A program made the position numbers and the translations under genes. Of a stretch of 32,863 nucleotides of DNA, positions 1,000 through 27,288 are shown one piece after another. How positions within the stretch are numbered: the stretch's first letter is position 1; the number at the start of each line of letters is the position of its first letter. The DNA comes from Polymyxa betae (lineage: Eukaryota > Endomyxa > Phytomyxea > Plasmodiophorida > Plasmodiophoridae): assembly GCA_003693705.1 (NCBI GenBank), contig RBZT01000173.1, positions 1 to 32,863 of the forward strand, given 5' to 3'. The notes beneath the pieces are model-generated. The model was not told where the DNA came from. It did no database searches and worked only from the letters and a program-made list of their open reading frames with translations.

Positions 1000-2465
1000 T
1001 TATTCAATGGGATCATCACAGCTGAATACACAATTTCTCCTCCATAGTTCATAATGAAGATGTCCTGGACTAAAATATTCGCTCATCTTGTTTGAATAAT
1101 CACTGACCCAATGTGTTAACTGAACAGAGAAAACATTCCGATCCGAGAGATCCCGCAGCATCGACTGCGTATCACGTCCACGTTGATCCAGGTACTCGTC
1201 CACGTCCCAGAACCCGAACATCTGATTGATATCATACAGCAACGGCCATTCGGATCTCTGCAATCGGGTCTCGGACTCCGTGGCCGTCGACAGCAATGTC
1301 TCTACAAGCAGATGACCTCCCATGGCGACATCACCAAGACCCGGGTCGGCTTCGACGTCCGGGTACGCCCTCGCCATTCCGAGCAGCGCCTTACGCAGGA
1401 ACGGATGATGCCGGTCGAACTGGCCCAGGATCCCGTTCGTGCAGTACCAGGTGCGGCCTGCGATGAACGGCAGCGAATCGTTGAAGGGTTGCTGGATGTC
1501 GTGATCGGCGTCGCACTGGACCCAGCGGTGTCCGTGACCCACCGTCACCCGATCGTGACACGGGAGGCCGTTCCGCATCGTGAACGGCCTCAGGTACAGG
1601 GCGTCCGCGTCCAGCCACGACCCGCCGTGAAGGTACAGTACGGCCAGACGGACAAAGTCCGACAGAATCATGGGCGATCGTTCGATCGCCGGCCACAGCT
1701 GCGCGGCCCAAGTCGAAGTCCGGAAGACGGCGTCGTCGAGTTCCGGAAGAGCGTCCAGGAGTTGGAGTTGCAAGTCGGTCAGGTTGAGCGGGACCATGAC
1801 GACGCGGAGATGATGGGCCGCGAATCTCGGATCGATGGCGTTCAGATTGCCGTAGATATAGAGGGTCGTGTTCGGGTTGTTTTTCAGAAACGATTCGAAG
1901 CCGAGTTGGTACGCTCGAGGTAACGTGGACTGCGTTACCACTGCGAACGCATTTTGCGAAGTCGCGGGATAGTGTGCGGATGTGGATTGCAGTTGGCAGA
2001 CGCTGTGTGAGAGAGCGTCTGCGCTGATCTTCGAGTCCATCTCCAAATCGGATTTCAACGAAATCGCCTCCGAATCTAATGTCATTTGTTAACGTAAAGA
2101 ATTGGCTGTTTTGAAAATCAGAAAATTGTTGGTATATTTCGTTACTCAATAAGCGTGTGATCAAAAACGACCCTTGTAACATAGAGTAATGTGAAACTTG
2201 AGCAAACTTGAAACATTAACAGTAGATTGAAAGCGTTTTTTAAACAGAAATGGATCGAATGTCTCTAACCACTCTGAAGAGTTACCAGCTGTGTCATAAA
2301 GTGCAGTTCTAAGTAATGTAACGATATAGTTGTTATGGCGACAATACTGATTGCTATCCAGGCAACGATGATCAGAAATGGACGACATCTTGAGACTGTC
2401 CTGGCTGAGATCGTTCTGGATCTCCATCTATCAATATTCCGATCCATGCCACCATTGTACATCAT
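1000..2465 (-). CDS. GT32-type DXD glycosyltransferase, Golgi anchored
   Basis: Type II Golgi glycosyltransferase resembling the Gly_transf_sug (DXD) family that includes OCH1 and A4GALT-type enzymes. These transfer a sugar from a nucleotide sugar with metal bound by the DXD. The main exon (1000 to about 2067) carries LSDFVRLAVLYLHGG followed by the diagnostic DAD motif (residues 159-161 of the main reading frame), then a Trp- and His-rich C-terminus. That exon lacks a membrane anchor. An upstream frame (2465-2286) encodes a basic N-terminus and a hydrophobic helix (FLIIVAWIAISIVAITTIS), ending at a donor-like gtaact. The phase-0 join of 2286 to 2067 gives 415 aa, but the acceptor is weak, so the join is tentative. 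An independent start at 2085 is the alternative. The stop codon overlaps an AATAAA, a possible polyadenylation signal. Acceptor sugar and linkage cannot be read from sequence. Confidence 0.82.
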
Positions 2466-2568
2466 AATCTGTTAGTCAACCGAGCGGAATAAAGTACTTC
2501 CAGATAGGTGGACGATACCCGCAGAATGACGAGTGGGCGCATGCCTCCAGAATGAATCTACGAATATG

Positions 2569-2585
2569 CAAACCCTAACCCTAAA
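2569..2585. repeat. Interstitial telomere-like motif
   Basis: CAAACCCTAACCCTAAA: two and a half telomere-type units in the space between the GT32 gene and the next plus-strand ORF. It is one of about nine such short tracts in the window and lies in no gene that I can support. Confidence 0.7.
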
Positions 2586-2720
2586 ATTGATTTCACACTG
2601 AAGCACCTCTGTAATTACAATATGTCGGCAGCCTGACAAAACTGATTGAGGGCTCTGAAACAGGTTTTGACTTCGAAAATTTAGAATGCCGGAGACACAC
2701 ATTCCTCGGATGCTTTTTGG

Positions 2721-3107: not shown

Positions 3108-3384
3108 ATAATCTGCGAATCACCCAGTAGGAGACCCTGGACCTCAACTCAGGCCCGTTTAACTGTGCCGCCCACACCGCTGAAAGGAGCAGATAGTGCA
3201 ATCAAATCCAATCCAAATGCATGAAAATGGAGTGGAATGAAAGCTCTAGGTTTGGAGCGAAGCCTCCATTATCTCGTACGAAACCTCTTCGACATTGACT
3301 GATTCAGGATTCCCCACGGGTGCGGCCTCTTGGGGTTGTGGGAGGCTACGCCACAATAAGTGACTGGCTCGACACCTCTGCGGA

Positions 3385-3738: not shown

Positions 3739-6669
3739 ATGATCAGTCAAGAGCCAGTTTTGGTAGGGCCATGGCGCCGTCTGGCGGCTGTCGCTTTAGT
3801 CCTGATTTTCGCTACAATCTGTCTCCTCAGTGTCGTTACTGTCAGTCACGTCAATGATGATCGTCTGCTTTTATCACCAATGTCATCGTTATCTTCCTCG
3901 TTGCATAATCGAACAAGGCATGAATGCAGCGATAACCGCGGTGGTCGTGTGGCTTTGGTGACCGGTATTAATGGCATGATTGGATCTCATGTAGCTCGGG
4001 CTCTTCTCGAATCGAATCGTGCTTGTTATCATGTCGTTGGTCTAATTCGTCCACGATCTGATCTATCAACTCTAGCTGGTATTCTGGATCAGATCGAATT
4101 TGTGCAGGGAGATATTACTGACAGCCATCGTATGATTACCATCATTCAGGAGGTAAACTTTCTGCCTTTACAACTTTAACTTTTTTTATTCAAAACCCAT
4201 TTTTTCTACATTTCTGAAACCTGAAGCCCTATCTGCTTTCTATTCAACATAATCGTTCGATGGATTTATTATTCCAAATTTAAAATGATCGCTTATACAA
4301 GTCTCCTCTATTGAATCGTTTCCGGCCAGGTTGATCCGGATGTGATCTTCCATTTCGCCGCTCAAGCAATCAATGGAATATCGCTCGGTATTCCTCAAGT
4401 GACCGTCGACGCCAATATCCAGGGCACCATCAATCTATTCGAAGCCATCCGACGTTGGGGTCGACACCCCCGCGTCTTGGTCGCCGGCTCCAGCACCGAA
4501 TACGGACAAGCTGCCGAGCGCCATACTGGTCCCATTCCCGAATCGCTGATTCTGGATCCCGTAACGCCCTATGGAATCAGCAAAGCTGCCACCGAGAAGA
4601 TCGCCAATCAGTATGTGATCGCTGCTGAGATTCCAGCGGTCACGGCGCGTCTGTTCATTCATGTTGGCGTCGGTGGGACGGACTCGCTCGCCATCCATCA
4701 GTTCTGTAAGCAGACGGCGCTGGCCGAGCTCGGTCTAGCCGCCCCTGTGATTCGTCATGGGAATCTGAAGACGGCCAGAGATATCACCGATGCGCGTGAT
4801 TCGGCACCGGTTTTGATTCAGCTGGCCGAAGAGGGCGTTCCCGGCGAAGCCTATAACGTTGGTTCCGGGAATACGATTCATATCAAGGATCTGTTAGCTA
4901 ATGTAATCGATCAAGCTCGTGTGGTGATGACGCACGAGCAGGATCCCAAACTGTTCAGATCATTCGATGAGAAAGTTCTCGTTGCCGATATCAGCAAGAT
5001 TCGCGGCCTTACTGGTTGGCGTCCGGCATCCGATATGAGCACGACGGTTGGCAATATCATGGCGTATTGGCGACATAAAGTTCACACATTATACTGTGTT
5101 GAAGACGGTGATGGGGTCAACCCGTGTAAGACGGCCGTGAACAGCGACCCGGCTGCTGACAATGGCACTGTCGCCCCGGCTGTGAAATGCCAGTTTGCCG
5201 ATGTCGATCTCTGGGTTCCCCTTCATGAACCGGAGTTCCCAATGCTATCATTGCTGGTTAATAGCATCAAGACGTTCATGCCATGTTTCAATACGCTGCA
5301 TATTGTCGTGGATCGACCTGATGCCACCAAAGCATTATCATGGTCAGTTGTAGTTATTCTGAACGATTTTTTTCTTTATTTTTGCTTTAACAAGGGTTTT
5401 GGGGTTTTCTTTATATGTTGCTGACCTTTGAATTAATGAAGTTTCTATGTTTGTTAACGGCTATCAGGGTGGTTGAAAGCGATGGTGTTGATGGCATCGG
5501 AAGGATCCGAATCGAACCTGTCGATTTCCCAGAAGCGCTTTCAGCTATCAAAGGGCAGCGATTAGATGGGTATATCGTACAAGCGTGGCGTATGCTCTGG
5601 GCGGATCAATTCTCGGCCACGACCGGTGCGAAATACGTCATGTTATTGGATACGGATTCGATATTCGCCATGCCGGTGACGTGTCGTTCGATCTTCGATG
5701 ATGAAGGCCGAATCTATCAGCTGTCTTGGTCGATTGAGCGGCAAACACACTTTCAGCAGCCTTGTATTGATATGGTCTTTAACATCGTTCTATACGAGAT
5801 GAAGAACTCTGATTTGTTCAATGCAGACAGGAGGTCAATGTACTCGCAGCTATATGGCCACATTTCCCTTCATCATGCCAATCGACGTGTTCGCTCCGAT
5901 GCGGGAATCGATTCGGCAGCGATTAGGGGGCGCCACGTTCGACCTGGCGTTCGGCTCATGGGCCCAACATTCGAACTGGCGATTCTTCTCCCAGTTCGTC
6001 ACTATGGGAGAGTATATGCGACTTAATCATCCTCATGTAAGCCTTATCTCGGACCGAAACATATTCACGTTTTTCCAAAGTTTTTGCCCTTGTTTCAGAT
6101 CATCGATAATATTATATTTTCTGCTTTTTTTTCTGTTTTTTTCTATTTTGTCTGAGAATTTCCTCTCTTGACTATGTTTTCAAAACATAACAATTTCGAT
6201 TGCTTAACCAACGTCATAGCGTGTTCGCCAAGTTTTCTGTCCAATCTGGAATGATGGCGTTGACAACTCGGCCGTTTTCAATGCATCCGACGATGCCCGG
6301 CTGTGTCTGCAGCACGTCCCCGTGACCGTCCACCTCGGCTGGGCCAACAACGCCTACGTCAACGGTGGCACCGGGACCTCGTATCGCCGGGTCGACGCCG
6401 GCGAGTTCAACCGCTACTCGGATAAATACGGCGTCGCCACCATCGATGCTGTTCAAGCCATGACCATTCACGGAATCTGTCTCCGGGATCGCTGGGCCAA
6501 CAAGGACAACCCGTTATGCCACGATATCAACAGTACGACCGTGTTCCCAGACCTTAATCTGTATGGTGACAAACGTCAGCTCGATTGGTCTGTTATTGAG
6601 GAAAGATTCAAGCCTGATGATGGCAGTATTCTGTGTTCTGCAGGATCTCGCAGATCTCAATTTGTGTAA
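3739..6669 (+). CDS. GDP-deoxyhexose reductase-like SDR fused to a glycosyltransferase
   Basis: Five exons (3739-4152, 4330-5342, 5468-5774, 5827-6036, 6220-6669) give 797 aa. Residues about 15-36 form a signal anchor. Residues about 70-420 are an extended SDR: TGINGMIG nucleotide-binding loop (75-82), GSST (191-194), YGISK with Tyr219/Lys223 as the YxxxK pair. The segments GNLKTARDITDARD, EAYNVGSG and ISKIRGLTGWRP match GDP-4-keto-6-deoxymannose reductase (RMD, which makes GDP-D-rhamnose) best; related GDP-mannose dehydratases are the alternative. After about residue 425 comes a second domain (VDLWVPLHEPEFPML... with DTD at 537-539 in LLDTDSIF, then TGGQCTRSYM), typical of a GT-A transferase. 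All introns have GT-AG ends and matching phases. The last acceptor at 6219 is chosen over a nearer one at 6098-6099, which leads to a stop. The anchor would put the SDR in the Golgi lumen, as known for UDP-xylose synthase. An AATAAA lies at 6872. Confidence 0.86.
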
Positions 6670-6906: not shown

Positions 6907-8303
6907 TTATAAATTTTGTAAAGTTGGAAACTGGTACCCGATATCATTCAATGCATTAATCCAGTATTGCTGCAGTCGAACATCTTCAATATGAATATAT
7001 CCTCTCTCATACAGCTCTATCGCTAATTCTTCAATCCGTCCTGGCAGGCTGTTCTGCTCTCCTTTCCATTCGATCAGGAAATCGAGCAATGCCTCCGCCC
7101 TCTCATACAGAGGAATCTCCGAGTCGAGATCGGCGAGATAGTTATGCGGATTGCGGAACTGATTCACGAGCGGGGGCGAGTACGTCACCCGTAGGCCCAG
7201 ATCCCAAAGCAATCGCTGTCCGGAATATCCGCGCCAGATATCCGACACCCGCCCGTGGACGGAAATCGGCAGCAATAACATCCAGAACGCCGCCCTTCGG
7301 AACAGGCACGCCTGGGCGTTCAGCGGGGCCAGTACGCCCCGGGGCAACAGGATCGGGAGGGCGTCATCGGCGGCGTTGAAGTTGAAGGGCAGCGGCTGCG
7401 TTAATCGATAGATGGCGTCCATATCCGGATCGTGATCGGCCAGCGACTGAATCAGACCGATGGCGTTGCCGTCGGCGACTTTCCGGACCAGTTCGGAGTT
7501 CCAGGCGGCGTCTTGTTTGATATGAGTGAGAGGGATGCCTCGGGGCCAGACGGGGCGATGGGGTGCCCCAAGTCTCACATACGGATTGTATGATGGGAAT
7601 TGATGGGTCTCGGGAACTCGAACCGGAACTCGATCATGATCGGACGGCGTCGGAATCTGTTTGTCGCTTTTCAGGATGTTGTCGTCGTCAAAGTCCCAGA
7701 TGAATTCGGCGCCTCGCTCGATCGCATACAGAAATCCGATATTTTTCCGCCCGAAATGATTCCATGGAAGGGCGGCGAATAGCTGTGGAAAGCGGCCGCC
7801 ATATGTGTGCTGATCGTCGGCGTTAAGGTAGACGATCGGGCTGGATGCATCCGGGACTTGATAGATGCGAGGTGATTTCCGATCGCCGACCACCACAATA
7901 CACCATTCAGGTCCCAGATTCGCCTGACGACGAACCGCATCGGATGGCTCGAATATCGTCGTCACAACCGACCATTTTGTGCATTGAAATTGTGATCGGG
8001 ATTGATTAACTGCTATGGGCGCCCATCCGGAAAACATCACGTTTTCTTTTGGAAAATTTCGAATTTTCAAACCGGAGAATACTTGCCCACTACAGTCAAA
8101 CATTTGAATAAAACGTTCTGTTTTTGGCCATTTTTCTACCTGGTGGCAGTCCCCGAAAGCGTTTCTGGTTCGATCCAGGTGTCGGATAGGGTCGTACTGG
8201 TCAACGAGGTATTGATGAAGACGATGGCGATCCAGATGAATGAGAGACCGGTTAGGATGGCGACCACCTTCGGATTTCTCCATTCTGATTCTTTGTTCAA
8301 CAT
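6907..8303 (-). CDS. STELLO/DUF288-like Golgi glycosyltransferase
   Basis: Two exons (8303-8140, 8089-6907) give 448 aa. The 50-nt intron (8139-8090, gtagaa...tgtag) changes frame; splicing it joins the anchor-coding start MLNKESEWRNPK to the body. A long unspliced frame starting at 8283 exists but would replace the hydrophobic helix (VVAILTGLSFIWIAIVFI) with an unlikely basic N-terminus. The body shows DUF288/STELLO hallmarks: RKNIGFLYAIERGAEFIWDFDDDN (written here only in outline, an acidic cluster after the GFLYAI block), HTYGGRFPQL, and VSDIWRGYSGQRLLWDLGL. In plants STELLO proteins sit in the Golgi and affect cellulose synthase complex assembly; in animals and protists the family is little studied, and it is classed as glycosyltransferase-like (GT75). 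Convergent with the SDR-GT fusion gene. Confidence 0.85.
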
Positions 8304-8677: not shown

Positions 8678-9833
8678 TTATCCATAGATATGATGGGGTT
8701 GACGTCGACATTGTTCCGGCGCTGTTGTCCAGAATGTTGCCGAACCATGTTGACGATATGATGGCCATAACGCCAGCTTCCCATTCGACAACATTTCCGT
8801 GGCGGTTGTATCCTGAACCAGGCCCACGAAATCGCCGTGATAATCGCGAGGCAATGGGAACGCCGTCGAATGGTTGCCGTGATCGCCGCAATGGAATGCA
8901 TCATGATCGACAACATCGTCTCCAACGAGAGGCCAGATAACATCCTCCAGCCATCTCTGATCTGTATCCCATGATGGATTCGGCAATCGCTCATCAACAT
9001 ATCGGGTCAGGTTGCCGCCAACATCGCCCAACTTCGACCTCAAAGTAGCTGCATGGACACCCCACATCCCCTACGGGCCAGTACGGCGCCTCATTAGAAA
9101 CGCATTGATGCACTAATACACAAACCCAGACAAAGAGCGCTTCGAAAGCGTCAAGAAGGATGACTGTTTGAAGGATGAAAAGTTTTGTAGAAAAATCGCA
9201 AAAATCTATAAAAGCTTTTGTAGAAAAAAGCGGAAAAAATGTGGTTGTTACCCCGGGTAATACAAACCAATGATTAGGATGATCTCTCATAATATGAAAG
9301 GTCTTATTAGTCTGCAGCCAGGTGTTCACCGACGAGATCTCGCGGGCCGAGATCCGGGAATCGGCATCGCGGAACAGGGCGTACTCGACCTTGGGATCGG
9401 ACAGAACCAGGAACCGGAAGATACGCTTGGCGTTGCCCCAATGGGAATAGTTCCCCGGCAGCTGGATAACGGTGCCGCCCGCCTCCCGAAGCTGATCCTG
9501 AAACACGCCGGGAATGGTCTCGTCCACGACGAAGATCGATCGCCATGATAGATAATACAGAGGGACGGCCGCCGCATTCGCCAAAGCTCCATCCCGATCC
9601 ATCCCGCGATCGCCATACAGAGAGAACACCACGACCTTGTTCGCCTGCATGAACGCAGGGCGGCGTACGTGCGGCGTACTGGACCCGGCGTGGCGAAGCA
9701 GGTCCGGACGTATGGCATGGGCCTGGTTGCGTCCGATATCGGTAACCTGGAGGACAGTGGCGCCCAGAGCCAGTACGGCGGCGGCCTGTACGAGCCGATG
9801 TAACCAGGAGCTGCTGAATACGTGACCTTTCAT
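8678..9833 (-). CDS. DXD glycosyltransferase, family A copy 1
   Basis: Two exons (9833-9252, 9070-8678) joined across a 181-nt phase-0 intron give 324 aa. Signal anchor at about residues 12-31 (LVQAAAVLALGATVLQV). The body contains SLYGDRGMDRDGALANA, a DAD metal-binding motif within LFRDADSRISARE, then FHIMRDHPNHW, G/GMWG across the splice, and DDVVDHDAFHC. This pattern is seen in uncharacterised nucleotide-sugar transferases of surface-polysaccharide loci; the sugar is unknown. The paralog at 24605-25705 has the same intron position between two glycines before MW, which confirms this splice. The intron carries a repeated ttttgtagaaaaa and one copy of the CCAGTACG octamer. The stop codon TAA lies inside TAAACCCTA, a telomere-like string. 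Confidence 0.85.
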
Positions 9834-10372: not shown

Positions 10373-11793
10373 ATGATCGCAGGACGGGGTGATCGTCGTG
10401 GTCGTACTGGACCGGGCCTCATGACGGAGTCCATCCCAGCCCTACTGAATCGTCATCGGACCCAGATCTATCTCATTGCTATTATAACGTTATCATCATT
10501 CCTAACATGGAATATGTTCCATATGTCATTGCAGGCGTACTGCCCCTCGCCCACTAACGTCCTTGATGGACGGTTGACTGGTCAGGACAGCGTCGTGGTC
10601 GCATTCGACGTAACCGAGCAGGAAGCGCGGTCCAGTCCGCAGCTGGTAACGTCAAGTAACGTGCCCGGGCCGGGGTTCGAAACCGATCTGTCGTCCGGCG
10701 GTCGTGCTGACCCAATGCCAACAACAATCGAATCGGGCGACGATGCTGTGATGAGTAACGTGTCCGAGTCGAGTCAGGTCCCAGCTGAAACGTTACCTGA
10801 CCAACCAACGCAGTCGATTGCAGCCGAGTTCTCCGATCCGGAACCGATTCGGACCCCGTCACCGACGGATCTCTACTCCGGGATTCTGCAATGGCGTTAC
10901 CATCAGCAATGTCAGACGGGTCTCCCGTTTGCTGCGAGCCAGTACGACGATCTGATAGGACAGATAGAGGCGCAGGATGAGTTCTCTGCAGTACAAGTTG
11001 GATATGAGATGTGGAATCGACTCAGTCTAGAAGAGGTTCAGTCTCCCTATCGATATTACGCCGATCAGGGAGCCGTGACGGACACCGCTCTGGCCTATCC
11101 ACTCACGATACTCTCCTACGGGCAACGTCGTGAGCAAGGCCTGCAACAGCTGGAACGGATCGGCGCCCACCACACTGATCTGGTGTCGTACCCGTCCTTA
11201 GATGCCGCATTCCATGATCGTCCTTATCTATCCAGATATCTATTTCGTAATGCCATTAATATGGAATGGGATAGATTTACATCATTCTTCTCTGGTAAAG
11301 ATCAGGGCTATCTATTAAGTACATTGAATCAATGGATCGTATTGGAGCGCCTTAAGAACGGCACCTATCCGGATGAGGTTTTTGTTGTCGAGGACGACGT
11401 GTTCATGGTGCCAGATTTCCAGAGGAAGTTCGGCGTTTTAAGGGAGCAGCTGGCCACGTTGCCATGGGAGGTAGGCAGGCAGGAGTTGTGCTAGGGTTTA
11501 GGGTTTTAATGGATGCTCAGGTGGTGTTTGTTGGGACTTGTCATCAGATCAAGTCGGATAGGGAGGCTTCATCGAACTTGTTTGTAGCAGATGCCAGCCG
11601 TTGTTTTAATGCAGTTCTGTTAAGACGTAGCGCGGCTGTAAAGATATTAGAGGCAGGCGCTGTATTAGATGAATTTCAAGCTGTTGATCATATGTTTAAT
11701 ATCTATATACCAACATTGAATCTAACTGCATATTATGTATATCCACCATTAGCCTATGAGCAAACTAAAATATCACATATTTATCCATGCTAA
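10373..11793 (+). CDS. GT25-like glycosyltransferase, copy 1
   Basis: Two exons (10373-11470, 11521-11793) give 456 aa. Start choice: ATG at 10373; a second ATG at 10421 (MTESIPALL) aligns better with the start of the paralog at 21964. Signal anchor QIYLIAIITLSSFLTWNMF, then a long Ser/Thr/Pro/Glu-rich stem of about 120 residues that the paralog largely lacks. The catalytic part has ILSYGQRREQGLQQLERIGA, a KDQGYLLSTLNQW block, the acidic motif VVEDDVFMVPDF and YVYPPLAYEQ near the end, features of GT25/LPS-type transferases (the EDD is the metal site). The 50-nt intron is phase 0 and carries the telomere-like core at 11490-11507. The 273-nt second exon has exactly the same length as in the paralog. 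Confidence 0.85.
11490..11507 (+). repeat. Telomere-like core in intron of GT25 copy 1
   Basis: GCTAGGGTTTAGGGTTTT, sense orientation, starting 20 nt after the donor of a 50-nt intron. The same 18 nt occur in the paralog intron at 22844-22861, and a one-insertion variant in the minus-strand intron at 20690-20672. Confidence 0.85.
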
Positions 11794-12027: not shown

Positions 12028-13507
12028 ATGTTCGGATCATACTGTCGACGACCGAAATCCAAGCGATCGCTGCCCGCCGACCGACTCCGATCTGTGCTTT
12101 CGCTGCAATGGGTCCAGCTCAGGTCCCAGATTCCACCCGTCCTGCTGCTCCTGGTCGGCGTACTGGCCCTGGCCCTATACCAAAATCGGATCGGGTTCGA
12201 ATCACAGCAACAGAATGCCGCTATGGGGCAGCCGTCAGCCCCAGATATCGTGCGTCTTTATGATGGCAACAGGCTCTTGTCATAGTTTCATGAAATCTTG
12301 AAAATTTTCGGAAACTTTTCGGAGAATTTTCGCCAAAAATTTACCTCATTTTCCCTGCCTGCACATTTCTTGCGGTTCTTCGATGCTGACAATACAGGTG
12401 TACAGGACCTCGGATGGAAGGCTCCAAGGTGGCTCCGGGACTATGTTCAATTCTGTGGTGAGCCGGATACAGACACCACCCGATACCTGATCTGGTCCTG
12501 TACGGATCAATACTGCAGCGGAATCGGGGATCGAATTCGCGGCATTCTCACGGCCTTCTATCTGGCTGTTGGGACACGACGCAAGCTCAAGATTCACTGC
12601 ATCAAACCTGTCAATTTGAACCGATCGCTGCAGCCCTCTTGGATCGACTGGTAACGTGTTGGACGGTTACGTTACCCTTGGGCTGTGTAACATAACTTCC
12701 CCCAGGTCGACCGATGCCGACATCCTGTTCGCCCAAGCCCCCGAACGTGTTCGTGTTCACGCCCGCAATGACACTCTGGCCTACGCATACGATACCGACC
12801 ATCTTCGGATTGCTTCAATCTTCACGACGGCCATGGAGCAGTACGCCCTGTATTCGGCCCCGCAGTTCGCCGCACGTTTCTACGGTGATGAGATCCGTGT
12901 CGGACCTGATAACTGGGACCTATTAGCGACCTGGGCCTGGGATGTGTTGTTCCAGCCTTCGCCCGAACTTCAGGCCGAGATTGACGCCGTTCGATCTGAC
13001 GCCGATCTCTCCGGTGACTATATCGCCGTCCACGTTCGTCATGGCGGTCATTGGGGCGATTGGTTACGTCATGATACGGATCAACAACTCTCTCAGTTTA
13101 TCGAATGCGCCACCAATATGACCAAGTCGATGGGTGGAGATCCACTCATTTATGTCGCCTCCGACGATGTCTGCGTCAAGGAGGAGTTCCGGAAGGCGTT
13201 GGCTGCGGTCCGGTACGACCCGCAACCGCCGCGGCATATCGAGAAGACGCGGGATTATGAGGAACAGCTGAGGATCTGGGCCGAGTTTGAGGTGATTCGT
13301 CAATCGAGTTGTATTGTGGCAAGTTTGAGCGGATTCTCATTATGGCCGGTTATGACAACTCGTGATCCTGTATCAGGGAGAAGATGTTGGGCGAGATTTG
13401 ATCGATGTTCTATGGAGATGATATTGAGATCAAGATCGGGCACTATACCAGCGTATGATGCACCTAGTGCTAATCATCCAGATTTCGGTATTACAGCACT
13501 ACCTTAA
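12028..13507 (+). CDS. Fucosyltransferase-like type II membrane protein
   Basis: Three exons (12028-12249, 12406-12650, 12706-13507) give 422 aa. Signal anchor at about residues 36-53 (PPVLLLLVGVLALALY). The body has YCSGIGDRIRGILTAFYLA (sugar-nucleotide-binding start of fucosyltransferase-like proteins), then PSWIDW, the VHVRHGGHWGDW block resembling the HxRxGD motif of alpha-1,2/alpha-1,6 and O-fucosyltransferases, and a C-terminal SLSGFSLWPVMTT. Intron 2 (12651-12705, 55 nt) is certain. For intron 1 the donor at 12250 with the acceptor ending at 12405 keeps phase 0; donor 12254 with acceptor 12397 is an equal-phase alternative. GDP-fucose or another GDP-deoxyhexose is the likely donor, which fits the neighbouring GDP-deoxyhexose reductase-like gene. 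AATAAA at 13516-13521, eight bases after the stop. Confidence 0.82.
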
Positions 13508-13650: not shown

Positions 13651-13666
13651 TGATAGGGTTAGGGTT
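13651..13666. repeat. Telomere-like motif overlapping a stop codon
   Basis: TGATAGGGTTAGGGTT on the plus strand. Read on the minus strand it gives AAACCCTAACCCTA, and the TAA stop of the exostosin-like gene (13661-13659) is the TAA of the first CCCTAA. Confidence 0.8.
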
Positions 13667-14888: not shown

Positions 14889-14926
14889 CGAGCTTGACGA
14901 CGTCCCGTATTTGGAATGTTACCGGC

Positions 14927-15642: not shown

Positions 15643-16746
15643 ATGAAATCCTTTCGTCGACTGTCGTTTATAGCGATGCTGTCATCGGCGACCACCATCG
15701 TCGTCCTCATTATGTATCTTTGTATACCTGAATCTGCTATCCCATCAAGCTCATCATCTCTGGAATCGTTCTATATTCCATCTTTCAACGGCACTTTTAG
15801 CGAATATTTGACATTCTCGCCCATATCTACTGGCTTTAATTTCTCTGAAGAATTCCATCACGAGAAGTCGTCTCCACCAGAAATCGCCTCACATTATCCA
15901 GACGAATCCCAACGTCAGTTCCCGTATCCATTCGTATCCGGCGATATGTTCCGGTTCACATCCGATTTCATATTCGACGAGAACGATTACAGGAACCATT
16001 GGGGCCCGGGTCATGTTGGTTCTTGTCAGACCGTCTTTGTCAAGAACAACCTTCTTGGCGACTTCTTCGACGACGTCTTCCCTCATATTCGCCACCCGTT
16101 TATCTTAATTTCGCACAATGGTGACGATCCAGCTCCAGGAAGGTTTCATGGGCATTTAGCCGATCCAAGAATCTACTCCTGGTTCGCCCAGAATCTGGAC
16201 GGGACCCAGCACATGAAACTTCGTCCGATTCCAATCGGCATCACGAATAGCCAATGGGAGACCGGCAATCTTAACGAATGGCGCCGTGCTTTAAGCAGAG
16301 ACCTACCTGGTTGGGATGAGAGAGACACTCTGCTCTTTATCAACTGGACCGATGTAAACAACCCTATAAGAAAGCTGCTGAAGGAGAAATTTCGCCATTT
16401 CACCAAAGATACGGTTGTGGGAGAAGGCAACCATGAGCAGTTCCTGCACAACCTTACTCGAACCAAATTCGTCCTGTCACCGCCTGGGAAAGGCATCGAT
16501 TGTCATCGTCATTGGGAGGCGATATTGATGGGAGCTGTTCCTATCGTGTTAAGGTCGGGACTCGACCCGCTCTTTCAGAATGCACCGGCTGTGGTTGTTG
16601 ATGATTTCAACGATATCAGCGAGGATCTGCTGAGGGCGCTCAGGCCATCTGAAAGCTATAATCGTCGCATTATGTGGGCAAATCTCTGGCTCGGTATGAT
16701 TAAGAATTCTGTTCAAGAATGCCTCGCAAGGAGATCGGAAAGTTGA
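15643..16746 (+). CDS. Exostosin-like (GT47) glycosyltransferase 2
   Basis: Intronless, 367 aa, starting at the first ATG. Signal anchor LSFIAMLSSATTIVVLIMYLCI, then a Ser/Phe-rich stem with possible N-glycosylation sites (NGT, NFS). The folded part includes ILISHNGDDPAPG, LRPIPIGITNSQW, LLFINWTDVNNP and the strong signature FVLSPPGKGIDCHRHWEAIL followed by MGAVPIV, as in exostosin-like transferases with a GxDCHR.WE motif. It differs clearly from the neighbouring exostosin-like protein, so the two are not recent duplicates. Sugar specificity cannot be deduced. Confidence 0.86.
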   Translation: MKSFRRLSFIAMLSSATTIVVLIMYLCIPESAIPSSSSSLESFYIPSFNGTFSEYLTFSPISTGFNFSEEFHHEKSSPPEIASHYPDESQRQFPYPFVSGDMFRFTSDFIFDENDYRNHWGPGHVGSCQTVFVKNNLLGDFFDDVFPHIRHPFILISHNGDDPAPGRFHGHLADPRIYSWFAQNLDGTQHMKLRPIPIGITNSQWETGNLNEWRRALSRDLPGWDERDTLLFINWTDVNNPIRKLLKEKFRHFTKDTVVGEGNHEQFLHNLTRTKFVLSPPGKGIDCHRHWEAILMGAVPIVLRSGLDPLFQNAPAVVVDDFNDISEDLLRALRPSESYNRRIMWANLWLGMIKNSVQECLARRSES

Positions 16747-17420: not shown

Positions 17421-19370
17421 ATGCAACACAACAAACAACGTCGTGGTTGGAATGAGATATTCGGTAGCAGCCGCTGGAGAGTATGTAGCAGTATTACCGT
17501 CCTCATTGCTTTCGTTCTGCTTTCTATGAATGGCTTTATAAAGCCAATCAACACACAAGTATCATGGCTGCCAAAACCATCAGCGATGGATCCTCCTCGG
17601 TCTCTTATTCATGGTCTAGAACCTGTCTTCAAGAATAATGGATGGACTGCTATCGACAATCCATGTGCGAAGTTGCCATTCGATCATCGCGATACTGTTA
17701 ATTGGTTAAAGCAACGTTATTGGTGCGATCGTCAACGATATTTTCTAAGGTCAGTTGCCAAGTTTTACTTTCTTTTTCTAAGGTCGGTTGCGAGTTTTAC
17801 TTTCTTTTTCTAAGGTCATTTGCGAGTTATACTTTCTTTTTAGGTCAGTTGCGAGTTTTACTCTCTTTGGATTCCAAAACGTCTCTGCTGGTTGATCATG
17901 TAAACATTGATGATTTTTTGTGTTCGTAGAGGACATCGTAATCATATGAATCCGACCCAAGAACGTTGGTCGAAGCTGAATCCGAAGCTAAACGTGAAGG
18001 TTGATTACAACCGATACGTCGTTAGCGGGCCTGGTCTTGGAGCTACAGTTGAAGGGCGGATTCTGGCCGGTCATACTCGCCTACCAGCAGAGATCGCTCA
18101 AGCACCTGCATATACTGGACAGCAACATAACTGTTCTGTCGGGAAACCATGCGGCTTTCAGATACGAACTTTCGATTCACAAGGCGATCCTGTCAATCAT
18201 AACGAGGCCCGATTCAAGGCCCGGTTGTACGGCACAGCTATCGTCGACGCAGACGTCATGAGTATTGGGGGCGGCGTCTATAACGTGTCGTACACGCCCT
18301 ATGACGCCGGCATGTACTTGATCCAAGTACTTTTAACGTCGGTTGATGGCGAGGGATTGGGCCCCGAATTCATCAATCGCAACGCTCCATTCCTGGTGAA
18401 CGATCTCATCTATCAATCCGAACACCTCCTGCACGTTGTTTGGCAAGACGATTCCGACGATGCTGTCGTTTCGCAATGCACGACGGCCGATCTAGAACGG
18501 GGACGATGGGTGTATGTCGAGAACGAATGTCGCCGGCCGTACTGCACGATGGCGCCCGGCGTCACGCTGTCCGATTTGCAGATCAATGATCCGCTGGGAT
18601 TGAACTGGAACTATGTCTGGGTGCCCATTGATTGTTATTATCATCTGTATACGCCTCTGGAATTTCATCAATGTACTCAGCAATGCGGATATTCGCAATG
18701 GTCGCTATCAGGCGATTCATTGGGTCGAGAGATGCTGCAGAATCTGCAGATGATTCTCACCGATTATTCGCCGAGTTTCGCGATGCCCAAATTGAAGTTG
18801 GGTGGCCCACATTGGTCGAATTCCATCAAGTTCAGAGATGTCACCAACTTCTCTGTCAACTTTGTTATGAATGAATATCATGAGACCGATGATGTCGCCG
18901 TCCTGCATTTACACAACGCCCATCAGCTGACGAGCGGCACTGGCGTCTCCGCCCTCTTTCCAACGAACTTCGCAACGATTGAGGAATTCGCCAGAAACTG
19001 CACCAAGAATCCCAAACAGCGATGTTTCTATTATGTGAATCCCGCTATACAACGTGAAGCCGATCACAGCAACAATGAAAGATTGCAAAGGTCGTTCTAC
19101 CGAGATGTTACGCGAGATCGTATGCAGATCTTCAATATGGCATTACGTGATCATGCCAGATCTCAAAATCTGTCGATTATTGAAGGAGAGATGCCCACCC
19201 GATCAAGATGGCAATCGTGTTGGGATGGAATTCATTATAGCGAAATGTTCGATCATTTCGAACCCGGAGATTCGAGATGGTTTGGAGGAGCGAGTATGAT
19301 GATCACACAGACATTCATTAATGCAATTTGTAATCAGCCATGTTATGCGATGGAAACTACCAGCTCATAA
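17421..19370 (+). CDS. Filamin/PC-esterase sugar O-acetyltransferase-like protein
   Basis: Two exons (17421-17749, 17930-19370) give 589 aa. Signal anchor at about residues 25-43 (SSITVLIAFVLLSMNGFI). About residues 160-245 resemble a filamin-type immunoglobulin repeat (GKPCGFQIRTFDSQGDPV ... GGVYNVSYTPYDAGMYLI). After a GRWVYVENECRRPYC segment follows an SGNH/PC-esterase domain: SGDSLGREM holds the nucleophile Ser in a GDS motif and WDGIHYSE near the C-terminus supplies the DxxH Asp/His. This architecture matches the TBL/XOAT, CASD1 and NXPE type of Golgi enzymes, which O-acetylate or modify glycans. The 180-nt intron is phase 2 and built of tandem copies of a donor/acceptor-containing unit. 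It is the only non-transferase decorating enzyme of the cluster. Confidence 0.86.
17750..17870 (+). repeat. Intronic ~32-bp tandem repeat
   Basis: Four units beginning gtcagttg/gtcggttg/gtcatttg at 17750, 17783, 17815 and 17844 (spacing 33, 32, 29). Each starts with a donor-like gtcagt or variant and ends with a pyrimidine run and ctaag or tag. The first unit start is the real donor; the intron acceptor is further on at 17929. Confidence 0.85.
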
Positions 19371-19767: not shown

Positions 19768-20989
19768 CTAAAGAGCTTTCTCGAAATCCGCTGTGAATCT
19801 TTCTAGACGCTGAACATGCTGAGCACCTTGTCCATCTCCATTCAGAACATGTTGTAATAGCCATTTCGACATATCAAAGATCTCATGATAGGTTCCTCTC
19901 GTATCTGGAACACGCGGCAAATGCGAGTCGAATTTCGTGTCGATTTCGGCCGCGCTTAATGACGATGGCCATCCAATTCGATCGATTCGATTTCGATTGG
20001 TTCTGTACTTAACTAGAACATCCCTCTCCCAGACAATGCTTCCCGTGATTTGAGCCGTTTTCAGCCGTAAACTGACCAATTGCTGATCCCAGAACCATTC
20101 GTTTCCCGTATTAAGCAACGTCGTCCGAATATCCTCGTTGACTCGTTCACAGATATGCTGTTCGGGTGATATGGCGATTGGTGAGATGGGGGATGGAAGA
20201 CGAAGAATCTGTCTCCATCTAAGACCTGTCATACCAATATTTGATAGAGCCCATTCCTTGAAATTATAACCCCATTTATCATCGGTCGCCTGAAACTCTT
20301 CCAGATCGAATAGGAGAATAGGCTGACGTTCCTGCCAGGCCATCGATGTCAACGTCTGATTGGCCAGACGAGCATCGAACGAATCGTAATACTGTCCTTG
20401 GCCTGTAGCGATCGGGAGCAGATCGACATCGGTCGTGATCAGGTAATCGTGATCTCGAATGAACGGCAGCATCGATGCGTATAATCGTGATAGTTGAGTT
20501 AATCGAACCCGATTATCTGGTAGCGAGGAATCGCCTGTTAAATAATAGACATGTTGGATATCATATTCAGCGAGTAAATCTATGATCAGCTGAGTATGGG
20601 AATGATTTCTCCATCCGCTACCAGGCGAATCTTCAACCAGAAAGACACTGAACGATATCATCAGTGAGGGGAAAACCCTAAACCCTCAGCACCTACATTG
20701 GCGTGAATTCCTGTCGTATCTTCCATGCTAATACAACAGCTGGTAGCCAATAGGCATATTTCGCATCCGTTCCGACACTCAATACAGCATAACGACGTCT
20801 TGGTGCGACGATCATCTCATCGGATGAGGTCTCGTTCCGAACGAGAATCTGAGCGCCAAATGTGCCCATCGTTGGCATCGGTGAGCGACAGTTTTCGCTC
20901 AGCACGAATACGATCAAGGCTGTTGATGCTGATACAACTGATACCAGCAATAAGATGGGACCGAATCTCCTGCGCTTGATCTCCTCCAT
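19768..20989 (-). CDS. DXD-containing Golgi glycosyltransferase, unassigned family
   Basis: Two exons (20989-20697, 20647-19768) joined across a 49-nt intron give 390 aa. Starts MEEIKRRRFG, then a signal anchor (PILLLVSVVSASTALIVFVL). The catalytic core starts with YAVLSVGTDAKYAYWLPAV and, across the splice, EFTP/IVFLVEDSPG. DYLITTDVDLLPI supplies a DVD metal-binding motif. A later HICERVNEDIRTTLL...WFWDQQLVS block may position the acceptor. The arrangement is that of a GT-A fold enzyme, but I cannot place it in a numbered family. The intron contains GCTGAGGGTTTAGGGTTTT. Convergent with the PC-esterase-like gene and divergent from the second GT25-like gene. Confidence 0.75.
20672..20690 (-). 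repeat. Telomere-like core in intron
   Basis: Minus-strand GCTGAGGGTTTAGGGTTTT within the 49-nt intron 20696-20648, starting 6 nt after the donor. It nearly matches the cores at 11490 and 22844 although the host gene is not related to the GT25-like genes. Confidence 0.85.
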
Positions 20990-21963: not shown

Positions 21964-23193
21964 ATGGATCGACGGAAATCGCTGAATGTGACACGAACGC
22001 AGATCTATCTGTCATTGATCATATTCAGCTCATTGATCACCTGCACTGTTCTATCCCTATCTCGTCGTCCATCATCGCTCCAAGATCCCATTCGAATCTC
22101 CAATCACGATAACGAGACCAAATCCCGAAGCGATGGGCGAAACTCGTCGTTGATCGCCCTTCTCCTGCAATCGCCGAACTCCAAAATCGATGAACTTCCC
22201 GGGCACAGCTCGTCGCCGCCGCCATTCGATCGCACCGCCCGGATCGTGCTGGCTCTTCAACGTCATTATCACGACAGCTGTGATCGTGCGCTAACATCGG
22301 ATGAGATCCTGAATCAGGGAATGATCTCGCAGATCGAGAGCAGCGATGAATTCTCGGGCGTCTTGATCGGGACGGAGATGTGGAATCGGCTGAGCTTGGA
22401 CGAGCTCGACGATCCGTTCCGTTTCTACGCCGACCCGACCGACAGCGATTCGGACGCGTTCCCGTTCGCGATTCTGTCGTACGGGAAACGCCTTCAGCAA
22501 GGGAAAGCGCTGCTCGCGCGTATGGGCGCCGATCGGGTCGATTGCGTATCGTATCCGTCGTTGGAGAAGGCGTTCGCCGACCTCCCGTATCTGTCCCGAT
22601 ATCTGTTTCGTGATGCAGCGATGATGAATTGGGATAATTTCACGATGGAGTTCTCTGGAAAGAATCACGGCTATTTATTAAGTACATTGAATCAATGGAT
22701 GATCTTTGAACGATTAGCGAATGGGACCTATCCCGATCAGGTCGTCATCGTTGAAGACGATATGTTCCTGGTCCCAGATTTCACCAGGAAGTTTCGGGCG
22801 CTGCGATCGCAATTGGCTACAGTACCCTGGGATGTAAGAACACGCTAGGGTTTAGGGTTTTCTCCAATATTCTCGTTTCCAACGCCATCGTGATACTAAC
22901 CGTCGGGCTGTGCGTTTTAGGTCGTGTTCTTGGGGACGTGTTTCGGGATTCGGTCGTACACGCCCGCGACTCCGAACCTGTATGTTGCCGATAGGAGCCG
23001 CTGCTTCAATGCGGTTCTGATGAGGGCCAGCGTGGCCGTTAAGATCCTCGAGGCCGGCGTCTGCGTCGATCGATTCGCTGCTGTTGATCATCTGTTCAAT
23101 CGTTATATCGTCGATCTGAATCTCAACGCTTATTATGTGTATCCACCATTAGCGTATGAACAGTCGAAGAATGTAATACAGCATCCTTGTTAG
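21964..23193 (+). CDS. GT25-like glycosyltransferase, copy 2
   Basis: Two exons (21964-22833, 22921-23193) give 380 aa. The frame is open from 21943, but only via a TTG; the first ATG is 21964 (MDRRKSLNV). Signal anchor QIYLSLIIFSSLITCTVLSL. Same catalytic order as the paralog at 10373: ILSYGKRLQQGKALLARMGA, KNHGYLLSTLNQWM, VIVEDDMFLVPDF and, in exon 2, NLYVADRSRCFNAVLMR and YYVYPPLAYEQ. The EDD is the likely metal site. The intron sits at the same codon as in the paralog (phase 0) but is 87 nt against 50, sharing only the 18-nt GCTAGGG core. The TAG stop lies within GTTAGGGTTAGGGTTT. Confidence 0.86.
22844..22861 (+). repeat. Telomere-like core in intron of GT25 copy 2
   Basis: GCTAGGGTTTAGGGTTTT, identical over 18 nt with the copy at 11490-11507, 10 nt after the donor. 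The remaining intron sequence is not alignable between the two paralogs. Confidence 0.88.
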
Positions 23194-23582: not shown

Positions 23583-24578
23583 TCACATTATAGTTCGTGA
23601 ATGATTCCATAAATCCTCGTCATGTAATATTCGTTTCTTTTCATCGTGTCCATGTAAATAATTGGCATGAACAATGACCGGACCTTGTGGATATCTCACC
23701 CAATCATATCCTTCAATCCACATGATCTTCCCGTTCGGGAATACCGACCCCGGCACCGTATAATGAGCGTACTGGCCCGCGATGTTGTTCTTGGCCCGAT
23801 TCAACGCGACCTGATCGTCCTCGGTCGGATCGCTATTCGCGAACACGATCCATTCGTGAATGAGTTGTTGCGATGTTTGTTTGGGCGTGAAATACAGCAG
23901 ACACGAGCACCAATACCCATCGGCGCCATCTTCGGAGACGATCAGATCGAGATCGGTGTGATTGGCGAGAATCGGCTCGAACACGCGATACGGATTGCTT
24001 CTATAAGCTGTATCAACATCGGAATAGAACACCGAATATCCCAGCTCAAGAAGCGCCTTCAGCATGCTCGGTCGCGATCGCGTCAGCTTTCGGAATCCGT
24101 TCGAGGCGTATTCGACCGCGGGCGTCTCCGCTTCCGTTGAGATCGGGAGCAGGACGCGATTCGTGTGATTTAACGCCCAATATGTTCGATTATCATAGGC
24201 CATAATCACGTAATTCTCAACACCAACTCGGGACGCCATTCGTCGCCAATCGTCGAACATATCCAGATAGCCCCAATTGACGCCCACCACCGTGATTCGA
24301 TTCTGGTCGTCCGCGAATCGATCCAGGAAACAGGTCGACGGCGGCCAGGGGTCGTACTGACCCGGGCAGGAGGCGATCGCTGGTTGAGGCGCTCTTGGAT
24401 TCAGATAGCGGCTGAGCAATGATCCGATTAGACATGTTGATAGCCCGATGAATGTGAGGACGACGAGAAGTCGAGCACGTCGAGAGGAGCGTCTTGAACG
24501 CGTTTCTAACAGCATTGAGACAGCTCCATATGTGACTGGAATTTCTAGCAGCAATAAAGACCGTCTCAAATAGAGCAT
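23583..24578 (-). CDS. GT77-like nucleotide-diphospho-sugar transferase
   Basis: Intronless. ATG at 24578 gives 331 aa (MLYLRRSLLLLEIP); ATG at 24515 (MLLETRSRRSSRRAR, 310 aa) gives a more typical short basic tail before the anchor LLVVLTFIGLSTCLIGSLL and may be the real start. The frame is open further up but would overlap the preceding gene. Catalytic features of the nucleotide-diphospho-sugar transferase family (PF03407, GT77): YVIMAYDNRTYWAL, LLELGYSVFYSDVDTAYRSN with DVD as the metal site, DDQVALN, and VIVHANYLHGHDEKK at the end. Plant relatives are arabinosyl- and galactosyltransferases; here the sugar is unknown. Only 26 bp (or 89 bp with the later start) separate it from the upstream gene on the same strand. 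Confidence 0.85.
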   Translation of the reverse strand: MLYLRRSLLLLEIPVTYGAVSMLLETRSRRSSRRARLLVVLTFIGLSTCLIGSLLSRYLNPRAPQPAIASCPGQYDPWPPSTCFLDRFADDQNRITVVGVNWGYLDMFDDWRRMASRVGVENYVIMAYDNRTYWALNHTNRVLLPISTEAETPAVEYASNGFRKLTRSRPSMLKALLELGYSVFYSDVDTAYRSNPYRVFEPILANHTDLDLIVSEDGADGYWCSCLLYFTPKQTSQQLIHEWIVFANSDPTEDDQVALNRAKNNIAGQYAHYTVPGSVFPNGKIMWIEGYDWVRYPQGPVIVHANYLHGHDEKKRILHDEDLWNHSRTIM

Positions 24579-24604
24579 GATGTGTTTATTAATAGGTCTG
24601 ATTT

Positions 24605-25705
24605 CTAGCCATAGATATACGCAGGATGATTTCGGCAGCGTTCTGGCACTTGTTGATGGAAATTCGCATCGCCGCTGCGACGATATTCGGGCCATAGAGC
24701 AGTAATGTGACTATGCGAGAAGTCGGTCATGGCCGGATCCAGAATATGGCCAACATAATCGCCATGATAATCGCGTGGTAATGGGAACCCTTTGGAATAT
24801 GGGGAATACTGCCCACAAAGGAACGCATCGTGATCAACGACATCGTCGTGGATCTGCGGAAACACGACCTGCGACAGCCACTCTTGATCGTCGAATTTGT
24901 CGGCGTTCGGGAGCTTGGGCGTCACGAAGTTCGTGATGCTTGCGGCGACGTCTTCCCCAATCTGCCTTCGTAATATTGGAGCATAGACAGCCCACATTCC
25001 CTGAATGCTTTCAGAGATCGTATTGAATGAATTGGTCTCGTCTTACCCCGAGCATGGTGGTTGTATGAGCTGGATGATCTCTCATAATGTGATAGGATTT
25101 GTTCGATCTCAGCCAGTAATGAACCGATGAGATCTCTCTGGCTGAAATACGAGAATCTGTATCCCGAAACATGAAGTAATCGATGGTTGAATCATTGAGA
25201 GCCAAATATCGGAATATTCGACGAGCTTCACCCCAATCTGTGAAGCTATCTGGCAGAACTCGGACCTCGCCACCAGCAGCACGAATCTCGTTCAACGAAC
25301 TCTCCGGAACCGTGTTATCCACAACAAACAGAGCCTTCCACGATAGATAATACAGAGGAACCGATCTGGCATTGAACACAGCCCCGACTAGATCCATAGG
25401 GCGATCTCCATATACAGTGAATGCAACGAATTTGCGAGCTGTTAGATAGCCAGGACGGGCATAATGACTTAAGCTTTGAGATCCATCTTGGAAAGATTCT
25501 TCGGACGAATCCGTTTCACTAATAAACTCGTGAGATATTATTTCATGAAATGTCTCTTTACATCTCACCCGAGATAGGTAAAGTTGACGTGAGGTTTTGG
25601 CTGCAATTTGGATCTGAAATGTAAAGAGCATAATACCAATAGTAAGGGAACCAGGGACAGAGCAATCGCTGCCTGAAATCTCTTCGGATCGCTCCAATAA
25701 CCCAT
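24605..25705 (-). CDS. DXD glycosyltransferase, family A copy 2
   Basis: Three exons (25705-25569, 25518-25047, 25000-24605) give 334 aa. Splicing out 25568-25519 (gtgaga...attag, 50 nt) joins a signal-anchor exon (AAIALSLVPLLLVLCSLHF, then PHVNFTYLG) to ETDSSEESFQDG. An unspliced frame reaching 25874 is longer but lacks this anchor next to the catalytic part; an upstream exon there (MQSSLLRG with its own hydrophobic run) is a less likely alternative. The body has AFTVYGDRPMDLVGAVFNA, LYYLSWKALFVVDNTVP, a DTD motif in MFRDTDSRISARE, YHIMRDHPAH, G/GMWA across the 46-nt second intron, and DDVVDHDAFLC. Paralog of the gene at 8678-9833, with the last intron at the same codon. Sugar unknown. Confidence 0.85.
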
Positions 25706-25953
25706 TGCTATGGCGTTCCGCAGTAAGCTGAAGACGTTGGGAATCAGCACGAACGCTTTCAGTGGTTCGATATCGTCGTACAGGACCTTGATTCAGCAGT
25801 CCGAGTATGACTGACATGCCCATAGTGATGATACAGATTGGACCGCAGCTGCCTCTCAATAGTGATGATTGCATGGTCACTCAACGATAAACAGACGTTT
25901 TCCAACTCAACGAAACTTGTTTTTTTTTTATCAAAATTGACTCTATTTGATGA

Positions 25954-27288
25954 CTACTGATGAAGAATCCAGGAAGTGTTGCTCGCAGCGTCTGTTTCAT
26001 GTGATCGGATTGACAAGATCCGGAGCGAGAAGGTGCTGAGTGGAGATCCAACGAAGAAATCGGCTTCAGCACAGGACTGCTGCTCGATCACTGCCCTCAT
26101 GGCAGCACTGAATCTGCAAGCATCAGATCGATCTGGATCGCATCCTATCTGTTTCAATGCTGCAATTCCTTGACGCAGATAATCCCGATCGCCCGAGTCG
26201 CCATTCGTGATGACGAAAACCGATCGAATGGCTCCAGTTCGGTGCAGCTGATTCGCAGCCGAAATGAAGGAATCCATCGGGATCCGAATCAGATCTTCTC
26301 TGCGAACATGCATACAGAGCAATGGACGTTCATGAACAAGCGTCTGATTCCTGGCAAGAGCCTTAATATGACGATTATAAGGAAGATAATACTGGTCATG
26401 ATCGACAGCGAAGAACATCGTCTCTCCATTAATAAAGATTATTCTCTCCTTGGACCTCTGCAGCAGCGCTGCGGTCAAATTCGTGCCATCCACAGTCTCC
26501 ATCCTATCAAACGACAGAGTACTTTTATCGCATTGAAAGCTGCCTGGAAATCTTCCGGAGCCCAGCTGATCCGAAGACGATCTCACGAATGGAATAAGAT
26601 GAGATATGTTAGAGGCGAGGAAAGGCGTATGCGACCATGGCAGCAGCCAGCAATCAACAGACCACGATGAAGGGTTTCTTAGACGCCATGGTGCATCTTC
26701 GGGCGACTCGCCACAGGACAGATTCCTGTTGATTCCTTTCACGACATAATCGGATGCCACAGGATCGTCGTACAACCCCTGAATATGGCATCTATTCGGG
26801 CTCAGATACGAATTCATCACATCCAGGTCCAGAATCTGCAGCCACGACAGACTGAAATCAGCATGATCCTCCATTGCCGTTATTGTTGGTGGATAAACTA
26901 GAATCTTGCGACCCGATAGGTTGGCGTAATAGATAGCGTTGCTGAGCGACATGATGTTGTTCGATAAACGACCATAACCGGAATAGGCAAGAAACCGATC
27001 TTGAGGTAAAGTCCCATAGATTAGCGATGAAGGTTTTGGAGGAGGTTGCGGGTGCAGGATCGTTAGGTGAAGGACCTTATAGCTGATAACAATGAGAACA
27101 GCAATCATAGCCAGGATCGATGTATATGCAAGTCTCCAATGACATCGCCTGCTTTGATTAAGGGCAGCGAGGGCATCTTCAGCATCCTCAGACATGAAGA
27201 TTCTGCTCGATCGGCGTTCGATTTGATGGAGCTCAGCGGTCAGAATCAATGGATCCGACTCTTGATCCCTGCTTGAGCGTTCAGACAT
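25954..27288 (-). CDS. O-fucosyltransferase-like Golgi protein
   Basis: Intronless, 444 aa from ATG 27288 (MSERSSRDQ). The frame is open further up only through a TTG. A long cytosolic tail of about 60 residues precedes a signal anchor (YTSILAMIAVLIVISYKVL). The lumenal part begins FLAYSGYGRLSNNIMSLSNA, the G-rich GDP-sugar-binding start seen in O-fucosyltransferase (PF10250)-like proteins. LLCMHVRREDL corresponds to the HxRxxDL motif and EQQSCAEADFFVGSPLSTFS to the conserved C-terminal block of that family. Several N-glycosylation sequons. Acts presumably in the ER/Golgi lumen with a GDP-deoxyhexose donor. It is the last gene of the glycan cluster. Confidence 0.85.
   Translation of the reverse strand: MSERSSRDQESDPLILTAELHQIERRSSRIFMSEDAEDALAALNQSRRCHWRLAYTSILAMIAVLIVISYKVLHLTILHPQPPPKPSSLIYGTLPQDRFLAYSGYGRLSNNIMSLSNAIYYANLSGRKILVYPPTITAMEDHADFSLSWLQILDLDVMNSYLSPNRCHIQGLYDDPVASDYVVKGINRNLSCGESPEDAPWRLRNPSSWSVDCWLLPWSHTPFLASNISHLIPFVRSSSDQLGSGRFPGSFQCDKSTLSFDRMETVDGTNLTAALLQRSKERIIFINGETMFFAVDHDQYYLPYNRHIKALARNQTLVHERPLLCMHVRREDLIRIPMDSFISAANQLHRTGAIRSVFVITNGDSGDRDYLRQGIAALKQIGCDPDRSDACRFSAAMRAVIEQQSCAEADFFVGSPLSTFSLRILSIRSHETDAASNTSWILHQ

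Follow-up and report, generated by a model that had tools for sequence, protein, structure and literature searches.

A probable clustered Golgi pathway for a deoxysugar-containing glycan on a contig of Polymyxa betae

The DNA analysed here is a complete contig of the Polymyxa betae assembly (C339, 32,863 bp, hereafter the window; the assembly comprises 24.43 Mb in 541 contigs), and it carries 14 consecutive genes, designated G01 to G14, at positions 1,000–27,288. The cluster is real and is not expected by chance, and the locus is intron-bearing and eukaryotic. The 14 genes probably constitute a physically clustered Golgi pathway for a single surface or wall glycan that contains a deoxysugar and is possibly O-acetylated, and this interpretation is firmest for G02 together with G03. 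Eukaryotic glycan genes are usually scattered, and for that reason their pathways have to be pieced together one enzyme at a time. If the interpretation is true, the 14-gene block is a parts list for one glycan and draws attention to a polymer on the surface or in the spore wall of soil-borne plant parasites; how a Rhizarian came to have a block of this kind would then need explaining.

Gene models with GT-AG introns were constructed manually; the first exon of G01 was picked by hand and the start of G05 was set at 10,373. They occupy both strands, with 70% of the region coding and intergenic spacing of 79–1,291 bp. GT-AG introns are present in 10 of the 14 models and absent from four, and the introns number 14 across the 14 genes. 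A simple hydropathy scan detected a hydrophobic, anchor-like stretch of 19 residues inside the first 110 residues of all 14 proteins (best mean hydropathy 1.41–2.94, G05 and G04 being the weakest), which confirmed the claim of a previous sequence-only reading that 14 consecutive genes encode anchored proteins. The sole open reading frame (ORF) of at least 120 amino acids lying entirely within intergenic space is at 2,721–3,107, and scanning the window for Rfam families and tRNA genes gave no matches. Within the window, G04 and G13 share 52% identity over 274 amino acids and G05 and G11 share 60% over 300 amino acids, while G07 and G08 have a faint similarity (E 0.011). Each of the first two pairs represents one family, giving approximately 12 families, and the cluster is therefore not a tandem array.

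G02 (3739..6669, plus strand, five exons) encodes an anchored short-chain dehydrogenase/reductase (SDR) fused to a second domain with a DTD motif. The SDR part matched PF16363 (GDP_Man_Dehyd/Epimerase) with an E-value of 1.8e-54, and its closest solved relative is the GDP-6-deoxy-D-lyxo-4-hexulose reductase 2pk3 (E 1.6e-44); the third solved match is the GDP-6-deoxy-D-mannose reductase (RMD) 6x3b (E 4.7e-32). In a ten-member alignment of relatives, the SDR motifs TGxxGxxG (residue 75) and YxxxK (residue 219) are invariant, as are both D-x-D aspartates of the second domain. These similarities suggest that the SDR is GDP-6-deoxy-4-hexulose-reductase-like and that its product may be GDP-D-rhamnose; the deoxysugar supply proposed in the sequence-only reading fits G02 on account of this closest solved relative. 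The convergent neighbour G03 (6907..8303, minus strand, exons 8303–8140 and 8089–6907) encodes a STELLO-type glycosyltransferase, which matched PF03385 with an E-value of 3.3e-19 (69.4 bits against 27.8) over profile positions 1–112 of 387 only. It also matched a solved bacterial-type entry named 'Transglycosylse' (E 1.7e-15).

Homologues of G02 were collected with query residues 60–797, and 46 were found among the best 7,993 candidates scored. They are mostly metagenomic; two derive from eukaryote transcriptomes, with one each from a Prymnesium assembly and from Effrenium voratum. For eleven of the 46, the alignment runs through the two halves of G02 in their G02 order, and P0138 is a twelfth with the halves swapped. 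In 13 of the 46, a G03-like region is present in the same polypeptide (P0133, P0135, P0138, P0142, P0147, P0150, P0152, P0154, P0155, P0156, P0158, P0159, and P0168); it precedes the SDR in ten of these and follows it in P0138, P0159, and P0168. All three modules are found in P0133 and P0135, in the order STELLO-SDR-transferase, and in P0138, in the order transferase-SDR-STELLO. Database Pfam annotation gives STELLO in 12 of the 46 homologues. In our own Pfam scans, STELLO was above the cut-off in P0133, P0135, P0138, P0142, and P0158 (five of the eight proteins in one scan set), below it in P0147 and P0150, and not reported in P0159. The occurrence of two domain orders across many proteins makes a gene-prediction artefact unlikely. 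G02 and G03 are separate convergent neighbours here and a single polypeptide elsewhere, and such a pattern is a classical sign that two proteins serve a shared process. The SDR-STELLO fusions further hint at the biochemistry in which STELLO proteins may take part; in plants, these proteins have been linked to cellulose synthase trafficking (PMC4906169). P0133, P0135, P0138, P0150, and P0158 are very long multi-domain protist proteins that combine STELLO and SDR with further transferase-like parts, and weak extra matches to GT61 and GT15 were seen in P0158 and P0150, respectively.

The predicted product of G02 can be considered together with G08 and G12. G08 (15643..16746, plus strand, single exon) aligned with structures of A075L, a xylosyltransferase of the chlorovirus PBCV-1, over residues 143–331 (phmmer E about 1.4e-14). 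Its Asp161, Arg243, and Arg289 align to Asp73, Arg158, and Arg208 of A075L, which are the reported active residues (PMC11571054), the chain numbering of the A075L structure being read with an offset of two. A075L-type motifs recur in the G08 paralogue on contig C458. G07 (13659..14888, minus strand, single exon) encodes an exostosin/RXYLT1-like protein whose matches to RXYLT1_C (E 0.0015) and GT47 (E 0.0019) are both under the cut-off; G08, for which Pfam likewise gave RXYLT1_C/GT47 under the cut-off, is better read, on the basis of the A075L alignment, as GT114-like than as the exostosin of the sequence-only reading. The acceptor of A075L is fucose carrying D-rhamnose and galactose (PMC11571054). 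G12 (23583..24515, minus strand, single exon) matched the GT77 profile PF03407 (Nucleotid_trans) with an E-value of 1.1e-28 and 101.1 bits against a cut-off of 22. GT77 enzymes that add sugars onto fucose exist. Given the RMD likeness of G02, the acceptor of A075L, and the action of GT77 enzymes on fucose, a glycan containing fucose and D-rhamnose would be coherent but is unproved.

Whole-genome searches with the cluster families and PF16363, whose counts are lower bounds, placed these families at 15 more loci, spread over 14 other contigs, compared with 14 in the window. The G04/G13 family has further loci on C56, C86, C70, C176, and C142, the G05/G11 family on C43 and C130, and the GT77 family of G12 on C478, C130, and C204 (four including the window copy). 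Single further loci were found for G03 (C277, a partial match), G10 (C456, 69%), G14 (C409, 41%), G06 (C249, 46%), and G08 (C458, 55%), and no other locus was found for G01 and G09 in these searches. G02 has just a short SDR match elsewhere, on C235, which was left out of the count, and for G07 the genome was covered via the GT47 profile, which found only C458. For at least 14 of 29 loci to fall on 0.135% of the assembly, the binomial chance is 5e-33, a post hoc figure that treats paralogues as independent and uses lower-bound counts; no plausible correction would remove the significance of the cluster. In approximately 181 kb from eight contigs, all chosen for holding a paralogue, the window-like genes were the paralogues alone, with one pair on C130. 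Of the 39 ORFs of at least 200 amino acids near paralogues, 30 were scanned, and 13 were over a Pfam cut-off with no glycan enzyme among them; one scanned ORF without a Pfam match is itself a G13 paralogue. An accumulation by chance, or in a genome rich in such genes throughout, is hence very improbable. It would draw on the presence of the G04/G13 family on five further contigs, on the locus counts being lower bounds, and on the comparison contigs all being paralogue-bearing, but with so few and such scattered further loci the cluster is not accounted for by an overall abundance of these genes. The sequence-only reading had proposed a cluster of differing glycan-enzyme families and had named an equally dense genome as the finding that would speak against it; the cluster comprises about 12 low-copy families with their other members scattered, and the genome-wide searches did not reveal such density.

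The flanks of the cluster contain fragments of a C2H2 zinc-finger gene and of retroelements. The zinc-finger fragment, at the left contig end (130–563, minus strand), resembles one on C56, a contig that also carries a Tudor-SN gene with its best database match in Plasmodiophora brassicae (57% identity, the next being 43%). Broken retroelement pieces occupy 29449–31400 (minus strand), with an integrase core (PF00665) and an RNase H-like domain (PF17919) in separate short frames. At the right contig end (approximately 32000–32863), the GC content falls abruptly to 20–21%; this part could be foreign, organellar, or chimeric, and a 97-residue frame in it had no Pfam match. Short telomere-like motifs (TAGGGTTTAGGG or TAGGGTTAGGG, on either strand) occur at 2573, 11492, 13654, 20676, 22846, and 23191. 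Those at 11492, 20676, and 22846 sit within introns of G05, G10, and G11, respectively, the paralogues G05 and G11 having the motif in the same intron. Comparable motifs are present on some other sampled contigs.

A second alternative is a hot-spot of local duplication, or a variable locus for surface glycans, in which recombination gathers genes that share no pathway. The two paralogue pairs within the window and the nearby telomere-like motifs and retroelement piece are in keeping with it, as is a convergent G12-like/G11-like pair on C130, which has the tail-to-tail order of the window. On C130 (L025), the G12-like gene is at 1470–2459 and the G11-like copy, which looks interrupted, is at 5844–6544. 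However, the cluster contains about 12 different families, several of them single-copy, the duplicates are old (52–60% identity), and no terminal telomere array was seen at the contig ends. We regard this explanation as improbable.

Somewhat more weight, though still on the unlikely side, is given to a foreign origin, in which the block was acquired from another protist, an alga, or a virus, or the contig entered the assembly as a contaminant; such a block could still be one pathway. The mean GC content at third codon positions (GC3) is 0.551 in the cluster and 0.450 in a background of 42 sampled ORFs, each at least 200 amino acids long (Mann–Whitney p 7e-4). Some of the background ORFs are paralogues, and some may be in the wrong frame; the GC3 of five paralogues outside the window is 0.21–0.49. 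Plasmodiophora brassicae is reported to have four introns per gene (PMC4471660), against one per gene in the cluster. None of the matches of G13 and G02 bears the name of P. brassicae, most of them being nameless, and the AT-rich right contig end is also in line with a foreign block. Against it, tetranucleotide usage gave 0.71–0.72 for the three thirds of the window, equal to the mean between other contigs (0.723) for a measure that ranges from 0.27 to 0.91, and diverged paralogues sit on 14 other contigs. A giant-virus origin was examined by scanning viral contigs with P0133, the fusion alignment, G14, and the G05/G11 exons, which yielded 0, 77, 3, and 52 pattern matches, respectively; none was confirmed as a relative, and this candidate was rejected.

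The remaining proteins vary in how clearly they can be assigned. A Pfam scan of all 14 placed five over the curated cut-off (G01, G02, G03, G09, and G12) and five below it only (G06, G07, G08, G11, and G14), and reported nothing for G04, G05, G10, and G13. DXD or EDD motifs are present in G01, G02, G03, G04, G05, G10, G11, G12, and G13. G01 (1000..2447, minus strand, exons 2447–2286 and 2040–1000) is a type II, GT32-like protein with a DXD motif that matched PF04488 (Gly_transf_sug) above the cut-off (E 8.7e-6). G04 (8678..9833, minus strand, two exons), a putative GT-A transferase with an RDADS motif, and its paralogue G13 (24605..25874, minus strand, two exons), with RDTDS, belong to a family that includes bacterial members at approximately 30% identity. 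The predicted model of one of these, P0001 (predicted local distance difference test score, pLDDT, 76), matched glycogenin moderately (TM about 0.47), and its fold may thus be GT-A-like. G05 (10373..11793, plus strand, two exons) and its paralogue G11 (21964..23193, plus strand, two exons) are anchored proteins with a VEDD motif. The EDD motif suggests that G05 is a transferase; G11 matched GNT-I below the cut-off (E 0.1), and its predicted model (mean pLDDT 37) was unusable for fold assignment. G10 (19768..20989, minus strand, two exons) is an anchored protein with a TDVD motif. Sequence searches of the PDB with G06, G07, G10, and G12 gave no useful match.

Two possible fucosyltransferases and one possible acyltransferase complete the set. 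G06 (12028..13507, plus strand, three exons) has an HVRHG motif and matched NodZ with an E-value of 0.032 (13.5 bits against a cut-off of 28.3). The O-fucosyltransferase-like G14 (25954..27288, minus strand, single exon) contains HVRRED, an HxRRxD motif, and matched O-FucT (E 2.4e-4, 21.3 bits against a cut-off of 31.5) and the POFUT2 structure 4ap5 (E 2.7e-4). Neither reached the cut-off of a fucosyltransferase family profile. In G09 (17421..19370, plus strand, two exons), a filamin-like domain (PF00630, E 8.7e-8) is accompanied by a GDS motif at residue 371 and DxxH at residue 542, motifs that are catalytic in PC-esterase O-acyltransferases of the NXPE/TBL type, and G09 is a putative member. 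The Pfam (E up to 1) and PDB searches gave the filamin-like domain only, and the PC-esterase model was not called. The motif list of the sequence-only reading is accordingly right in outline, with several assignments weak. Among these are its fucosylation (G06 and G14) and its O-acetylation (G09), which draw on weak scores or on motifs; for its PC-esterase, the two G09 motifs stand and the family call does not.

Several observations weigh against a single pathway as proposed here. The second-best solved match of G02 is a dehydratase, the GDP-mannoheptose 4,6-dehydratase 7us5 (E 1.6e-33), and G02 matched 24 NCBIfam families, none of which reached its cut-off. A reductase acting in the Golgi lumen would depend on a lumenal supply of NAD(P)H, and such a supply is unproved. 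Nine of the 14 proteins are without a Pfam match over the cut-off. No cluster member besides G02 and G03 matches the 46 homologues, and the fusion evidence is thus limited to these two genes. In a bacterial genome scan for G04/G13 relatives, the only locus confirmed out of 35 pattern matches, in Rahnella, lies outside glycan genes, its recognised neighbours being LysR, bacterial Ig-domain, and OmpA proteins.

With these points in mind, the 14 proteins may act as type II Golgi enzymes in the synthesis of a single extracellular or wall glycan. By reducing GDP-4-keto-6-deoxymannose, G02 would supply a GDP-6-deoxyhexose both to the transferase-like domain of the same protein and to the STELLO-type G03. 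The PF16363 search found a second, stronger GDP_Man_Dehyd match in the genome, on C235, and this protein could be the dehydratase that supplies the substrate of G02. The fucosyltransferase-like G06 and G14, together with the GT114-like G08 and the GT77 protein G12, might add fucose and sugars on fucose, while G01, G04/G13, G05/G11, G07, and G10 would serve in chain extension or branching and G09 in O-acetylation of the glycan. Joint inheritance or co-expression may be what maintains the clustering, and the four divergent pairs (G01/G02, G04/G05, G07/G08, and G10/G11) could share promoters. A search of the literature on clustered glycosyltransferase genes, partly judged by title and not extending to most subscription journals, gave no report of this locus.

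Among known systems, the protist STELLO-SDR-transferase fusions P0133, P0135, and P0138 share all three of their modules with G02 and G03 taken together; the fusions are single polypeptides, whereas the window has two convergent neighbour genes within a larger cluster. Bacterial capsule and O-antigen clusters combine sugar-nucleotide supply, transferases, and acetylation at one locus. The window resembles them in bringing together putative supply, transferase, and acetylation functions, and differs in that its genes are intron-bearing and lie on both strands and that the Pfam scan recognised no flippase or polymerase. We tentatively suggest that the locus might be the eukaryotic equivalent of a polysaccharide locus in bacteria, with 14 Golgi-anchored enzymes maintained as a single block, in which a transferase-tethered reductase would provide the nucleotide-deoxysugar in the Golgi lumen for a glycan of fucose, D-rhamnose, and xylose like that of chloroviruses, on the parasite surface or in the spore wall. 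In comparison with the chlorovirus PBCV-1 enzyme A075L (GT114), G08 is alignable and keeps all three reported active residues; A075L is described as cytosolic (PMC11571054), whereas G08 has an anchor-like stretch. The galactosaminogalactan (GAG) cluster of Aspergillus fumigatus consists of five co-regulated genes for one exopolysaccharide and is clustered in several fungi (PMC4817252). Like the window, it is eukaryotic, and it includes a nucleotide-sugar epimerase, a synthase, and modifying enzymes (PMC4817252). The window differs from it in having 14 genes rather than five, in its families (SDR-transferase, STELLO, GT77, GT114-like, and O-FucT-like), and in the predicted Golgi-type anchors of all its proteins. 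Of the eukaryotic precedents seen, this five-gene fungal cluster is the nearest to the locus described here.

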